From Chlorobiaceae bacterium (GTDB lineage: Bacteria > Bacteroidota > Chlorobiia > Chlorobiales > Chlorobiaceae): 64,000 nucleotides of DNA. Below are positions 36,215 through 42,162 of the stretch, piece after piece (position 1 is the stretch's first letter; every line of letters begins with the position of its first letter). The notes below the pieces were generated by a model, which saw only the letters and a program-made list of their open reading frames with translations, was not told the origin of the DNA and ran no database searches. Both the position numbers and the translations under genes were made by a program. The stretch is from contig JAAXVR010000009.1 in assembly GCA_013335405.1 (NCBI GenBank), positions 1 to 64,000 on the forward strand. Reading direction: 5' to 3'.

Positions 36215-37021
36215 TTAAAAAGCTCGATCGAAGCTCCTGCGGTGCTTCATGGTAATTTCATGATCTTCTCCAAGGAACCTGAAAATCGCGATGCAGGCTT
36301 TTCTCGGTCCGTCGTCATCATAGTGCCGTTTTTCGCGCAGAACCCCGATAAAACCTTCGAGAGCCCCGTCGAAATCCTGCCGTTTCAACATCCCGATGGC
36401 ACGGAGATAACCCTCCTTCATGGGGTCCTCCTGCAGGCTGCGGGGATCGATCGTCATCAGGCGGCCAAGGGTGGCTATGGTCCCGGCAAGTTCGGCCAGG
36501 GAGGGCTCGTTTTCAAGCATCCCGCAGAACCGGAGAGCCTCCTGTGGATTGATGAAAAGTTCAAGCCTGGCAAGAAGAGATGCCGCGTTCATGTTTCCGG
36601 GTTCCTTTCGAAGTACCCCTTCAAGGAGAGTGATCGCCTTCGAAGGCTCGCCCCGGTTCATGAAAATACCAGCCGAAACGATCTCCTTTTCATACGGTGA
36701 CGGTATATTTTTTTTCAGCCATTCCGTCAGCAGGTATTCAGGCAGGGCGCCGGAAAATTCCTCCCGAACCTCCCCGTTCACGAAAAGTTTCACATTCGGA
36801 ATGCTTTTCACCCCGTATTGTCCTGCAATATCGGCATGTTCTTCGGTATTGACCTTGACGAGCTCCCATCGGCCCTCGTTCATTCCGGCCAGCTTTTCGA
36901 GTACAGGTGCAAGCATGCGGCAGGGAGAACACCACTCGGCCCAGAAATCGACAAGAACCGGGATAACGTGACTCCGCTCTATCACATGACGTTGAAAATC
37001 CAGAGTGAGAGATTCGTTCAT
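36215..37021 (-). CDS. thioredoxin-TPR protein (CnoX/YbbN-like)
   Basis: 268 residues: an N-terminal thioredoxin domain (about 1-110) with active site WCSPC, then a helical TPR-like region. This architecture matches YbbN/CnoX, a redox chaperone that holds oxidised proteins and passes them to GroEL or DnaK. Unlike E. coli CnoX, which lacks the reactive pair, this one keeps both cysteines, so it may also reduce disulfides. It precedes a nucleotidase gene and is downstream of the small SQR-companion gene and its terminator. Confidence 0.8.
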   Translation of the reverse strand: MNESLTLDFQRHVIERSHVIPVLVDFWAEWCSPCRMLAPVLEKLAGMNEGRWELVKVNTEEHADIAGQYGVKSIPNVKLFVNGEVREEFSGALPEYLLTEWLKKNIPSPYEKEIVSAGIFMNRGEPSKAITLLEGVLRKEPGNMNAASLLARLELFINPQEALRFCGMLENEPSLAELAGTIATLGRLMTIDPRSLQEDPMKEGYLRAIGMLKRQDFDGALEGFIGVLREKRHYDDDGPRKACIAIFRFLGEDHEITMKHRRSFDRAF

Positions 37022-37060: not shown

Positions 37061-37088
37061 GAAAAGAATTTCCTCACCGGGAGGAAAT
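37061..37088 (-). terminator. intrinsic terminator of the SQR operon
   Basis: ATTTCCTC/GAGGAAAT perfect 8-bp stem with a 5-nt loop, followed on the minus strand by TCTTTTC. It lies just after the stop at 37091, which supports the small gene there being real. Confidence 0.8.
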
Positions 37089-37090
37089 CA

Positions 37091-37249
37091 TCATGAGTGA
37101 CCGCCGGCAACGATTCTTATCATTTTGATATTCAGCACGATAAAACGGACAAATTGCCAGACAATATTTTTCCTCCAGAACATCGTCGTTCCGGAAGGTA
37201 CGGGAGGATAGGCCTCGTCGTAATATGCCTTGATTTTATTGGTATTCAT
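37091..37249 (-). CDS. 52-residue companion of the SQR-like gene
   Basis: An ATG at 37249 opens a 52-codon frame ending TGA at 37091-37093, directly before a strong terminator and 40 bp after the SQR-like gene on the same strand. The protein starts MNTNKIKAYYDEAYPPVP and contains an amphipathic, aromatic-rich stretch NIVWQFVRFIVLNIKMIR (28-45) suited to lying in or on a membrane. It is short and easily missed. I infer a membrane-anchor or assembly partner for the flavoprotein from its position, but no family is recognised. Confidence 0.65.
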   Translation of the reverse strand: MNTNKIKAYYDEAYPPVPSGTTMFWRKNIVWQFVRFIVLNIKMIRIVAGGHS

Positions 37250-37289
37250 AGATCACGCTGTTTAATTATGCCCGGACGTTATTGATACA

Positions 37290-38744
37290 TTACTCAGGAA
37301 TCAGCCACCAGAAAGGATAGCCTTTCGCCTTGTGGAAGAACAGGTAATGGAGAATGACTTTCAGCCAGTGTCCTGCAAGTCCGGCTTCACCGACCGAATA
37401 GTTCATGTCCCTGCCCCAGTCCGGGTATTTTTCCCAGTCGGGAACAACAGGAAAAAGCGTCATGGAAGCACCGAGGCCATCAAAGGATCCGAAACCGGCC
37501 GAAACGATACATGCCGCTCCCATCCTGCTCATTGAAGCCCTGTGACGGTGTTCCTCCATTCCCTGTATTTTTTCGGCGATATTGAGCGCCACGATTTTTC
37601 CCATAACACCGGAAGGCATACCTGTGCGGGGAGGTGTCGGAAAAATCTGCCTGCCTGTCGGGCTCGCCATCGGTTTTGAAATCGGATGCGGAGGGGCGAA
37701 TGCAATGCCCGGAGCATAAATATTCTTGAAGAGAGGATTCTGGTATATCGATGGCCAGTCATCGGCAGCCCAATCCTCGAATGGTTTCTGGGCATAATCC
37801 GCATCAACTTTCATGAATTTGTTCGGCATGAAGAGATCCGCCGTGATGTCCGCGCCGTTTTTATCGAAGACGGTGAGACCGACACCCGAGAATGAGGGGA
37901 TCAGCATGGCGAAATCGAATTCCTGCACCATATCCCGTCCTTCCAGTGTTTCGTAGTAAGCCTTTCCCGGTTCGACCCTGTAAACCCCGGCCCTCTTGAT
38001 CCAGTTGATACCGTATTCGGCAAGGAGGGATTCCGTGAAGACCTTCGTAGGTGTATAATATCCGCCACGGTTGATAAAGGCTCCCGCCATGCCGAAATCA
38101 CCAAGCTCGTATTCGTTCGAAATCCAGGTGATCCTGGCCTTGTCGCTGAGCCCCAGTTTCGAGATTTCGTGTGCAATGTTCAGGATATACTCGAAAGCCG
38201 CGCCCTGGCAGGTTGCCATGGCATGCCCTGTACCGATCAGAAAACGCTGTACCTGACCGGCCTTCATCTTTCTGATGTTCTCCTGCAGATGCTCCCAGGC
38301 ATGGGCTGCATGTCCGTAGGTACAAACCGAAAACGTATTCTTGTCCGGACCAAGACCTTCGGTGGCGTCAAAATTCAGCTTCGGTCCCGTAGCATTGACG
38401 AGATAATCATACTCAACGTTTTCCCGCTGGCCCTTGTGAGCATCATCCGTGTATTCAATGGTGACATATCCTCGCGCTGTCTCAAGGTCGCCTTCCGGAT
38501 GGATTTCGAGGGCTTTTGCAAGTTTAAGCGCAATACCCCATCGGTCGTAGACCTTTTTATGCTCGAAACGGACATCGTCGATAGACATCCTTCCGACACC
38601 AACCCAGATATTGGAGGGGATCCACTGATAATATCGGTTTGGAGTGACCATCACCACTTCATGGGCTTTTCCGAGCTTTTTCTTTAAAAAAGCCGCGCAT
38701 GTGTGCCCTGAAATTCCTGCGCCCAGAACAACGACTCTGGCCAT
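37290..38744 (-). CDS. sulfide:quinone oxidoreductase-like flavoprotein
   Basis: 484-residue FAD-dependent disulfide-type oxidoreductase of the SQR/FCC family. The N-terminal FAD loop is VVLGAGISGHTCAAFL (4-19), a central NATGPKLNF motif and a C-terminal GMPSGVMGKIVALNI FAD-contact are present. A hydrophobic amphipathic tail (LKVILHYLFFHKAKGYPFWWLIPE) is the usual membrane-attachment element. It oxidises sulfide and delivers electrons to the quinone pool. The subtype (several SQR types occur in green sulfur bacteria) cannot be fixed here. It is followed by a 52-residue gene and terminator. Confidence 0.83.
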   Translation of the reverse strand: MARVVVLGAGISGHTCAAFLKKKLGKAHEVVMVTPNRYYQWIPSNIWVGVGRMSIDDVRFEHKKVYDRWGIALKLAKALEIHPEGDLETARGYVTIEYTDDAHKGQRENVEYDYLVNATGPKLNFDATEGLGPDKNTFSVCTYGHAAHAWEHLQENIRKMKAGQVQRFLIGTGHAMATCQGAAFEYILNIAHEISKLGLSDKARITWISNEYELGDFGMAGAFINRGGYYTPTKVFTESLLAEYGINWIKRAGVYRVEPGKAYYETLEGRDMVQEFDFAMLIPSFSGVGLTVFDKNGADITADLFMPNKFMKVDADYAQKPFEDWAADDWPSIYQNPLFKNIYAPGIAFAPPHPISKPMASPTGRQIFPTPPRTGMPSGVMGKIVALNIAEKIQGMEEHRHRASMSRMGAACIVSAGFGSFDGLGASMTLFPVVPDWEKYPDWGRDMNYSVGEAGLAGHWLKVILHYLFFHKAKGYPFWWLIPE

Positions 38745-39173: not shown

Positions 39174-40802
39174 TCATGCTCCGGCCATCATCGCTTCGAT
39201 ATCTGCTTCCACGGTCCCGATCGGCTTTATGCCGAACTTTTCGACAAGAACTGCCACAACGTTCGGTGTCAGGAACTCCGGAAGTGTAGGCCCAAGTCTG
39301 ATTCCCCTGACCCCAAGAGAGAGCAGGGCCAGCAGGACGGTTACCGCCTTCTGTTCGTACCACGCTATATCGAAAGAAATCGGAAGCTGGTTGATGTCCT
39401 CGAGTCCGAAAACCTCCTTGAGCTTCAGCGCTATGACCGCAAGCGAATACGAGTCATTGCACTGACCCGCATCGAGTACTCGAGGAATGCCTCCGATATC
39501 ACCGAGCTCCAGCTTGTTATAGCGGTACTTCGCGCATCCCGCCGTCAGAATTACGGTATCATGAGGCAGAGACGAGGCAATGTCGGTATAGTACTGCCTG
39601 GAGTTGTGACGGCCGTCACAGCCGGCCATGACCACGAACCTTCTGATGGCGCCCGATTTGACCGCATCGACAACCTTGTCGGCAAGGGCAAGCACCTGGT
39701 TGTGGGCAAATCCGCCGACAATCTGAGAGTTTTCAAGTTCTTCCGGCGCCTGGCAGGTTTTTGCCAGTTCAACAAGTGCGGAAAAGTCTTTCCGACCACC
39801 TTCCGGGCGAGCGGGAATATGCACGAGGCCGGGATAACCCGCCATACCGGTGGTGAACATCCTCTTGCGGTAAGACTCGCGAACCGGCACAATGCAGTTT
39901 GTCGTCATGAGAATCGGACCGTTGAACGATTCGAACTCCCTGTCCTGGGACCACCACGAACCGCCGTAGTTGCCCACAAAGTGCGAATACTTCTTGAATG
40001 CCGGATAGTAATGGGCCGGAAGCATTTCGCAGTGGGTATAGACATCGACACCCGTTCCGTCGGTCTGTTTCAGCAGCTCTTCCAGGTCACGCAGATCATG
40101 GCCGGAGATGAGGATGCCGGGATTAAGCCCGACGCCGGTCCTGACTGTCGTTATTTCGGGATTGCCGTACGTTTCGGTATTTGCCCTGTCAAGCAGTGCC
40201 ATTGCCTTGACCGCCGTGGCACCTGTCTCGAGCACGAGCGTCGTGAGCTCATCAGCGGTAAGGGATTTGACAAGAGCCCCGAGGCCTTTGACGTAAAATG
40301 CATAGATATCTTCATCATGGTAGCCAAGCACGGCAGCATGATCGGTATAGGCTGCAAGGCCCTTGATTCCATAGAGCACAAGACTTTTCAGGGACTGCAT
40401 ATCCTCATTGGCACTGAGGTTTTCAATACCTGAAGTCAGCGCTTTCTGAAGGAACTCCTCTTTTGTGCTGCCGCTCCAGCGAGCAGCATCATAATCAGGC
40501 ACCGAGGCAAGCGCCGCTTTCAACTCGTCGCGCATGGCAAGCGTTTTTCTTATCTGTTCGACAATTGCTTCCTCATCGAAATTGGTATTGGTCACCGTCA
40601 CAAACAGCGATTCGCTGATCAGCCGGCCAACAGCCCTCTTCCCCTCGCCGTTCAGCTCACCCGCCACAAGAGCGAGACCTTCACAAGCGTAGACAAGCAC
40701 ATCCTGCAGTTTTGCCGTCATTTCATCCTTGCCGCATACCCCTCTTGCCGTACATCCGGTTCCCCTGATGCTTTCCTGGCACTGGTCACAATACATTCCC
40801 AT
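39174..40802 (-). CDS. hcp: hydroxylamine reductase (hybrid cluster protein)
   Basis: 542-residue Hcp. The N-terminal motif C5-x2-C8-x8-C17-x5-C23 is the anaerobe-type ligand set of a [4Fe-4S] cluster. Hybrid-cluster ligands appear in [18 protein letters not shown] and [13 protein letters not shown]. Hcp reduces hydroxylamine and is a high-affinity NO reductase in other bacteria. It is the last gene of the Rrf2-Fe-S-TPR-hcp operon and is followed by its terminator. A ribosome-binding site AGGAG lies 7 nt before the ATG. Confidence 0.94.
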
Positions 40803-40821
40803 ATGATCACTCCTTTGTCAT

Positions 40822-41241
40822 TTATTGTTGTTTTGTTTCAGGGGTGCAGAACGTTGCCAGTTCCCTGTCCCGTGCGGCCCCTTCCGCGTCTCCCTCTCTT
40901 TGTCTCAGTAAAGCCCTGTTCAGATAGGCCGAACGCAAGAGCCTCCGATTGCCGGGCTTTCTTGCGATGATCTCGCTGAAATCAGCCATCGCTCCGGGGA
41001 TATCTCCCGTCTCCATTTTCGCTAAAGCCCGGTTGCCGTATGCAGCAATCATTTCGCGGAACCGCAGTCCAATCCCGATGGCAATGGTAAAATCCCTCAC
41101 GGCACCATCGAAATCCCCGCTGCAGCTTTTTGCGTTCGCCCTGTGATAAAAAGCTTCCGCATTGTCCGGATGTTCCCCTATAATCCTGTCGAGTTCCCCT
41201 ACCGTACCCCGATACCCGCCAAGTGCATCTTTAAGCATCAC
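40822..41241 (-). CDS. small TPR protein of the hcp operon
   Basis: 139 residues with about three tetratricopeptide-like helical hairpins: HPDNAEAFYHRANAKSCSG, a GDFDGAVRDFTIAI pair, and GNRALAKMETGDIPGAMADF. TPR units mediate protein-protein contacts, here perhaps between the Fe-S protein and Hcp. No signal peptide. It lies 18 bp after the Fe-S gene and 19 bp before hcp on the same strand. The start may be the first or second ATG. Confidence 0.72.
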   Translation of the reverse strand: MMLKDALGGYRGTVGELDRIIGEHPDNAEAFYHRANAKSCSGDFDGAVRDFTIAIGIGLRFREMIAAYGNRALAKMETGDIPGAMADFSEIIARKPGNRRLLRSAYLNRALLRQREGDAEGAARDRELATFCTPETKQQ

Positions 41242-41259
41242 CCTCCTCCATCGACTCGT

Positions 41260-42162
41260 TCAAAGCCACTCTTCGGACAGGATCCCTCCCTGCAGGCCGA
41301 CAACCACCTTTTTGACCGGAACCTTGCGCGAAGCCTTCCCGAGGGCTTCGCTGACAATTGAAACGAGACCCAGACAGCAGGGAACTTCCATGATCGCAAC
41401 CGTGATCGTGTTGATTTTCGCCATATCGATCATTGCCGAAAGCTTTTCCACATAAACCTCCATATTGGTATCGAGCTTTGGGCAGGCAATGGCAAGGCTC
41501 TTGCCTTTCATGAAAGCACTGTGGAATCCGCCAACGGCAAAGGCCGTGCAATCCGCGGCAAGCAGCAGGTCCGAGCCCTGGAAATATGGAGCGATCGGAG
41601 AGACGAGATGAAGCTGGATTGGCCAATGCCTCAAAGCACTCCGTGGTGCTGCCGCAGCAGCGGAGTCCTCAGTCGGCGAAGTGTTCTCCTCTGTTCCGAA
41701 AACAACAGTCCGGCTGCCAGGGCATCCACCGGCATGAACATTGCCGGCAGTATGACGCTTCTCTGCAGCATGCACTTCAACTGCTGGTGATATCCGCTCC
41801 TCGAGCGGGTTCGGTATCCCCTGCTCTTCGAGGTATTCAAGCGCCAGGCGCAGATAGTTTTCCTGCCCATGGCCGGCAAGATGGCGCAGATGGGCTGCAA
41901 TGACATTCGTTCCCGCTTTCGCGATACTCTCTTGCATCACCCTCTTTTCGTCATACGGTTCGGCTTCCCGTGACACGACATTCATTGCTCCGGTCGGGCA
42001 ATGGCCCACACATGCTCCAAGCCCATCGCAGAAAAGGTCGCTGACCAGGCGGGCCTTGCCGTCGATAACCTGAAGAGCGCCTTCCGGGCATGCCGGAATA
42101 CAATCACTGCAGCCGGTGCATTTCTTCTCATCAATGGTAATAATCTGTCTGATCATGCTCAT
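41260..42162 (-). CDS. Fe-S protein of the hcp operon (ferredoxin + unknown C-terminal domain)
   Basis: 300 residues. The N-terminus is a two-cluster ferredoxin: C15TGC18SDC21IPAC25P, then CDGLGACVGHCP (C45, C51, C55). In the second motif the usual inner Cys at position 48 is Leu, so the second cluster has one ligand fewer and may be [3Fe-4S] or use another residue. The C-terminal ~100 residues carry CPKLDTN and VPCCLGL, a double-Cys motif seen in proteins near hcp in anaerobes. It likely passes electrons to Hcp. It follows the Rrf2 gene by 51 bp. Confidence 0.82.
   Translation of the reverse strand: MSMIRQIITIDEKKCTGCSDCIPACPEGALQVIDGKARLVSDLFCDGLGACVGHCPTGAMNVVSREAEPYDEKRVMQESIAKAGTNVIAAHLRHLAGHGQENYLRLALEYLEEQGIPNPLEERISPAVEVHAAEKRHTAGNVHAGGCPGSRTVVFGTEENTSPTEDSAAAAAPRSALRHWPIQLHLVSPIAPYFQGSDLLLAADCTAFAVGGFHSAFMKGKSLAIACPKLDTNMEVYVEKLSAMIDMAKINTITVAIMEVPCCLGLVSIVSEALGKASRKVPVKKVVVGLQGGILSEEWL

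Follow-up and report, generated by a model that had tools for sequence, protein, structure and literature searches.

Most sulfide:quinone oxidoreductases (SQRs) have two C-terminal amphipathic helices that serve the membrane and the quinone pocket, whereas type VI has only one (PMC9666304). Among the type IV enzymes, CT0117 (SqrD) of C. tepidum is well characterized and supports growth at 2–4 mM sulfide; the passages of PMC4584964 consulted describe it as a single protein, make no mention of a small partner and report type IV SQR as conserved in all sequenced Sulfurimonas. Small cofactor-less proteins encoded beside a quinone-linked peripheral membrane enzyme are known from the DUF1641 family, whose 17–21 kDa members include ForE of the B. 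subtilis formate dehydrogenase and YjlC, found with the NDH-2 YjlD (PMC8808070). Genes of the DUF2892 family are also small SQR neighbors: they lie beside type I-like SQRs in five of six annotated control plasmid loci (L183 and L197–L200, from unrelated bacteria), before or after the SQR and in the company of ArsR regulators, rhodanese or efflux genes. CydX of cytochrome bd is likewise very short; its coding sequence lies immediately downstream of its enzyme and easily escapes annotation, and the protein crosses the membrane within an integral complex. We found no small partner of type IV SQR described in the open-access literature; subscription papers lay outside this search, and prior notice is possible.

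The SQR gene and the small gene behind it

The locus analyzed here lies in a 64,000-nucleotide stretch of DNA from a Chlorobiaceae bacterium (the window) and comprises the following features.

36215–37021: next gene after the small gene, 69 bp further; thioredoxin domain fused to TPR repeats
37067–37089, minus strand: hairpin (9 bp, −9.5 kcal/mol) with a T-rich tail, 3′ of the small-gene stop
37091–37249, minus strand: small gene, predicted 52-aa conserved protein (ORF, orthologues behind SQR, dN/dS)
37250–37289, minus strand: spacer from the SQR stop (TAA) to the small-gene start, 40 bp, A-rich (from sequence)
37290–38744, minus strand: predicted type IV (SqrD) sulfide:quinone oxidoreductase, 484 aa (phmmer, fold, cysteines, clade, CT0117 orthology)
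39174–42162: upstream of the SQR; hybrid-cluster protein (hydroxylamine reductase family), small TPR protein and 4Fe-4S protein

Homology and predicted fold identify the product of the upstream gene as a true SQR, a flavoprotein. phmmer searches with the window SQR recovered the A. ferrooxidans and A. aeolicus SQR structures, with E-values down to 2.5e-34 (A. ferrooxidans), and in a Foldseek search with a model of the orthologue at locus L082, to which the small protein was tethered, the top matches were all SQRs (TM-score on target 0.81–0.85). Cys141, Cys179 and Cys412 are invariant in both SQR groups compared (the second is described below); Cys141 and Cys179 align with the Cys128 and Cys160 region of the A. 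ferrooxidans enzyme, and Cys412 is presumed to be the equivalent of its Cys356. The window SQR is orthologous to, and 79–80% identical with, a gene at 112.4 kb in the 2,154,946-base genome G014. We take G014 to be C. tepidum TLS and this gene, judging by its map position, to be CT0117; orthology with CT0117 places the window SQR in type IV.

The initial annotation had described a 52-codon minus-strand frame starting 40 bp after an SQR-like gene. This frame is indeed present, opens with ATG, closes with TGA and encodes the product MNTNKIKAYYDEAYPPVPSGTTMFWRKNIVWQFVRFIVLNIKMIRIVAGGHS, which contains no cysteine; no clear Shine-Dalgarno site was found in the 40-bp spacer before it. Orthologues with 67–87% identity occupy the same place throughout the family, with conserved start, frame and C-terminus, and the ATG start, the frame and a GGHS-like ending persist across Chlorobiaceae and extend into Bacteroidota. 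Between the window small gene and its relatives, dN/dS is 0.05–0.19 (median 0.089 over 1538 pairs), and codon changes fall mostly at third positions. The initial annotation had named one outcome as evidence against a partner of the SQR, namely that start, stop and codon pattern would not be conserved among relatives; when checked, these proved to be conserved. By these comparisons the small ORF qualifies as a real gene under strong purifying selection, far beyond chance. At locus L010 (G045) CTG stands where ATG would be expected, which reflects either an unusual start codon or an error in the sequence.

The frame had also been said to end before a strong terminator. A hairpin is present there, but its stability does not exceed that of shuffled sequence (z = −0.81, not significant) and the terminator scan does not list it, so that claim is unsupported; the hairpin could possibly act as a weak terminator. 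The thioredoxin-TPR gene beyond it is clearly common only to G058, the closest among the fetched relatives, and the hybrid-cluster and 4Fe-4S genes also stand beside the SQR in G058 and G043 and not in most fetched relatives. Neighbors of the small gene other than the SQR vary.

No Pfam or NCBIfam profile fits any of 20 diverse members of the small-protein family, and solved structures contain no credible relative. The DUF1641 (PF07849) and DUF2892 profiles gave no match to these 20 members at E up to 1, and the family showed no sequence match to the type I-like SQR loci tested or to SQR structures. A PsaO transmembrane domain (PF22832) was rejected, since only one of the 20 members gave a hit, and its 16.3 bits fall short of the curated cut-off of 27. 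The initial annotation had called the gene of unannotatable size, which is not quite right: RefSeq does annotate distant plasmid homologues of 52–53 aa, in every case only as ‘hypothetical protein’.

Co-occurrence of the small gene and type IV SQR

The small gene is linked to type IV SQR without clear exception across Chlorobiota, Bacteroidota, Pseudomonadota and Campylobacterota, the last two represented by three plasmid loci only. In a phylum survey of 394 Bacteroidota/Chlorobiota genomes, a small-gene match was present in all 96 genomes with a type IV SQR, and a convincing match occurred in one of the 298 without (G356), where it adjoins a broken SQR. A class survey of 98 genomes gave an SQR in 79, each with the small gene beside it (79/79, in some cases truncated where the contig stops), and the 19 class genomes lacking type IV SQR gave no small-gene match at E < 1e-3 (none better than E = 0.003). 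Outside the class, all 17 SQR-bearing Bacteroidota genomes have both matches on one contig, about 120 bp apart or less. In the fetched loci the small gene follows the SQR on the same strand at a distance of 14–271 bp, with gaps mostly of 15–60 bp. Relatives of the SQR number at least 570. The small gene was found at 77 of the 80 named SQR loci; the other three end at a contig edge with 0, 327 and 354 bases left, and in one of these the first small-gene residues are visible at the edge. Genomes with two type IV SQR genes (G009, G050, G055 and others) carry a small gene beside each copy.

The same arrangement was seen in all three plasmids with a type IV-like SQR (from Sulfurovum mangrovi, Candidatus Thiodictyon syntrophicum and Marivivens sp.), whose carriers, a gammaproteobacterium, an alphaproteobacterium and Sulfurovum, add three further classes. 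When the Thiodictyon small protein was searched against 72,556 plasmid records, those three type IV-like SQR records were the only matches, and the phage records searched gave no small-gene match.

Candidate orphan copies of the small gene were rejected. At L172 (G356) the SQR that it adjoins is reduced to C-terminal fragments, the small gene behind also looks degraded, and the two genes seem to be decaying together. At L073 (G025, contig C37) and L074 (G064, contig C28) there are short, broken small-gene-like remnants, separate from the intact copies and probably left over from SQR loci that were lost. At L092, from the known iron oxidizer Chlorobium ferrooxidans DSM 13031, SQR and small gene are both intact.

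Other SQR types lack the small gene: no such frame lies near the other SQR-like genes of G014, G001 and G019 or near six type I-like plasmid SQRs. A maximum-likelihood tree built from 43 SQRs places the 34 small-gene carriers in one clade with support 99/99; the outgroup sample is small, and three C. tepidum outgroups sit on very long branches. The economical reading of the tree is a single origin or recruitment of the small gene, at the base of the type IV clade. The earlier proposal that the small protein belongs with this particular SQR subtype is strongly supported by the genome linkage and by the absence of the gene behind other SQR types.

Some Chlorobium-genus genomes contain an SQR of another group (group 2), which shares about 40% identity with the window SQR and is followed 17–45 bp later by a 38-residue frame, e.g. 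MRPTSYQKFLMRCRIYQFWRFIVLNIKILKAVHHEKTS. This 38-residue version aligns with the helix of the window small protein and is missing the N-terminal arm. A group 2 relative in the Bacteroidota genome G386 also has its own short partner frame. The group 2 loci are L031–L040, L062 and L063 (genomes G048, G029, G003, G013, G033, G039, G023, G015, G019, G007, G067 and G068), and in green sulfur bacteria the group 2 SQR is found sometimes alongside the first SQR and sometimes in its place.

Predicted shape and conservation of the small protein

An AlphaFold model of the window small protein, computed with 55 relatives, consists of a loose N-terminal arm, a helix at residues 20–27, a kink and a longer helix at 29–48, with pLDDT near 90 in both helices. 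Several clades lack the N-terminal arm, which leaves the helix as the one universal element. Along the long helix, conserved positions recur periodically (p = 0.009, 113 distinct proteins) and mark out one face: Q32 is invariant in the 113 proteins, F36, L39, N40, K42 and M43 are nearly so, and the conserved helix residues fall within about 80 degrees of that face. On the back of the helix, V34, I37, I41 and I44 are always hydrophobic and interchangeable in identity. A conserved face with a hydrophobic back is the pattern that would be expected of a helix lying between protein and lipid. The invariant residues are kept across phyla, where identity is 31–35%.

The initial annotation had pointed to an aromatic amphipathic stretch in the product. 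Its aromatic character holds, whereas its amphipathicity is weak: the hydrophobic moment of 0.43 is moderate and is reached by 14% of shuffles, and family-wide only 6% of proteins are amphipathic at p < 0.05. The real periodic signal in the helix is conservation. The peak mean hydropathy of 1.57 is borderline for a membrane-crossing helix, and amphipathicity does not exceed that of shuffles, so the helix may lie at the membrane surface or cross it.

As a stand-in for the complex, we used a tethered model in which locus L082 was read through its TAA stop, together with 12 further read-through rows. The SQR part folds, and the small part has a pLDDT of 52–66, a low-confidence placement for which no contacts are reported. 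At modest confidence, the model gives an SQR with one clear C-terminal helix (456–473), followed by the small-protein helix at 526–546.

Proposed role and alternative explanations

Our preferred explanation is that the small gene encodes a dedicated accessory subunit of type IV SQR, and we consider physical partnership of the two proteins probable. The C-terminal helix of the SQR and the small-protein helix added to it in the L082 model lead us to propose a membrane-surface subunit on the C-terminal domain. The small protein would be made from the SQR transcript, downstream of the SQR, and its long helix would lie at the membrane surface. The face formed by Q32, R35, F36, L39, N40, K42, M43 and I46 would pack against the SQR, most likely on the C-terminal membrane-binding domain, which also forms the quinone channel, while the opposite hydrophobic face would dip into the lipid and the basic residues would contact head groups. 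In this position the small protein would help to anchor the SQR and shape quinone access, and would perhaps complete the membrane anchor or the channel for quinone. Such a membrane partner role is plausible given that one face of the helix is conserved and the other hydrophobic and variable in identity. A helix of the kind that other SQRs carry in their C-terminal region could come in trans from the small protein. A part in the quinone site itself, as suggested in the initial annotation, we consider less likely than not, and we are slightly more doubtful still that type IV SQR is an obligate two-subunit enzyme whose quinone-site membrane helix is provided in trans by the small protein.

The main rival to a subunit is a factor that acts on type IV SQR only transiently, in assembly, membrane targeting or stabilization (membrane delivery, FAD loading or protection), and is absent from the mature enzyme. 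Strict linkage to the SQR clade would also fit such a factor, as would a very short protein with one partner-like face. The conserved face and lipid-like back nevertheless suit a standing membrane-bound subunit as well or better, and one shared factor could serve two SQR copies, yet each copy has its own gene, which is only suggestive; on balance we regard a transient factor as unlikely. Less likely again is a small membrane protein that shares the operon but never touches the SQR, and that instead handles what sulfide oxidation produces or the stress it causes (polysulfide, sulfur, the quinone pool). The DUF2892 genes beside type I-like SQRs do show that operon mates need not be subunits, but a protein of this sort would be expected with other SQR types too, every copy found in the 394 genomes and 72,556 plasmid records lies with a type IV SQR or the remains of one, and the window protein has no cysteine.

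A non-coding element, such as a 3′ untranslated region, a small RNA or a processing site, in which the frame is incidental, might be suspected from the shortness of the frame, the small intergenic space and the want of a clear Shine-Dalgarno site. It is already contradicted by a dN/dS of 0.09 with third-position changes dominant and by similarity at the protein level, including the invariant residues kept between phyla, and the downstream hairpin is not significant; we give this explanation almost no credence.

A dedicated subunit of type IV SQR would resemble the DUF1641 partners in being small and cofactor-less and in having its gene next to that of a quinone-linked peripheral membrane enzyme, and PDB 9a63 (YjlC–YjlD) was among the matches in the fold search with the L082 model. 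The DUF1641 proteins are larger and unrelated, as no PF07849 match was found, and DUF2892 is a different family; on sequence grounds we treat the small family as distinct from both. Unlike CydX in its integral complex, the small protein would accompany a monotopic enzyme, and its helix carries conserved Q, N, K and R residues.

SQRs are usually described as single-polypeptide membrane enzymes, and here one of the six SQR types appears to have a conserved partner gene, one that belongs to no named family and is shared by Bacteroidota, green sulfur bacteria, Sulfurovum and a purple sulfur bacterium. Should the product prove to be a subunit, expression studies of type IV SQR carried out without it need repeating, and if it does provide a quinone-site helix in trans, SQR activity studied without it would be incomplete. 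The small gene could also serve as a marker that tells type IV from other SQRs in metagenomes.
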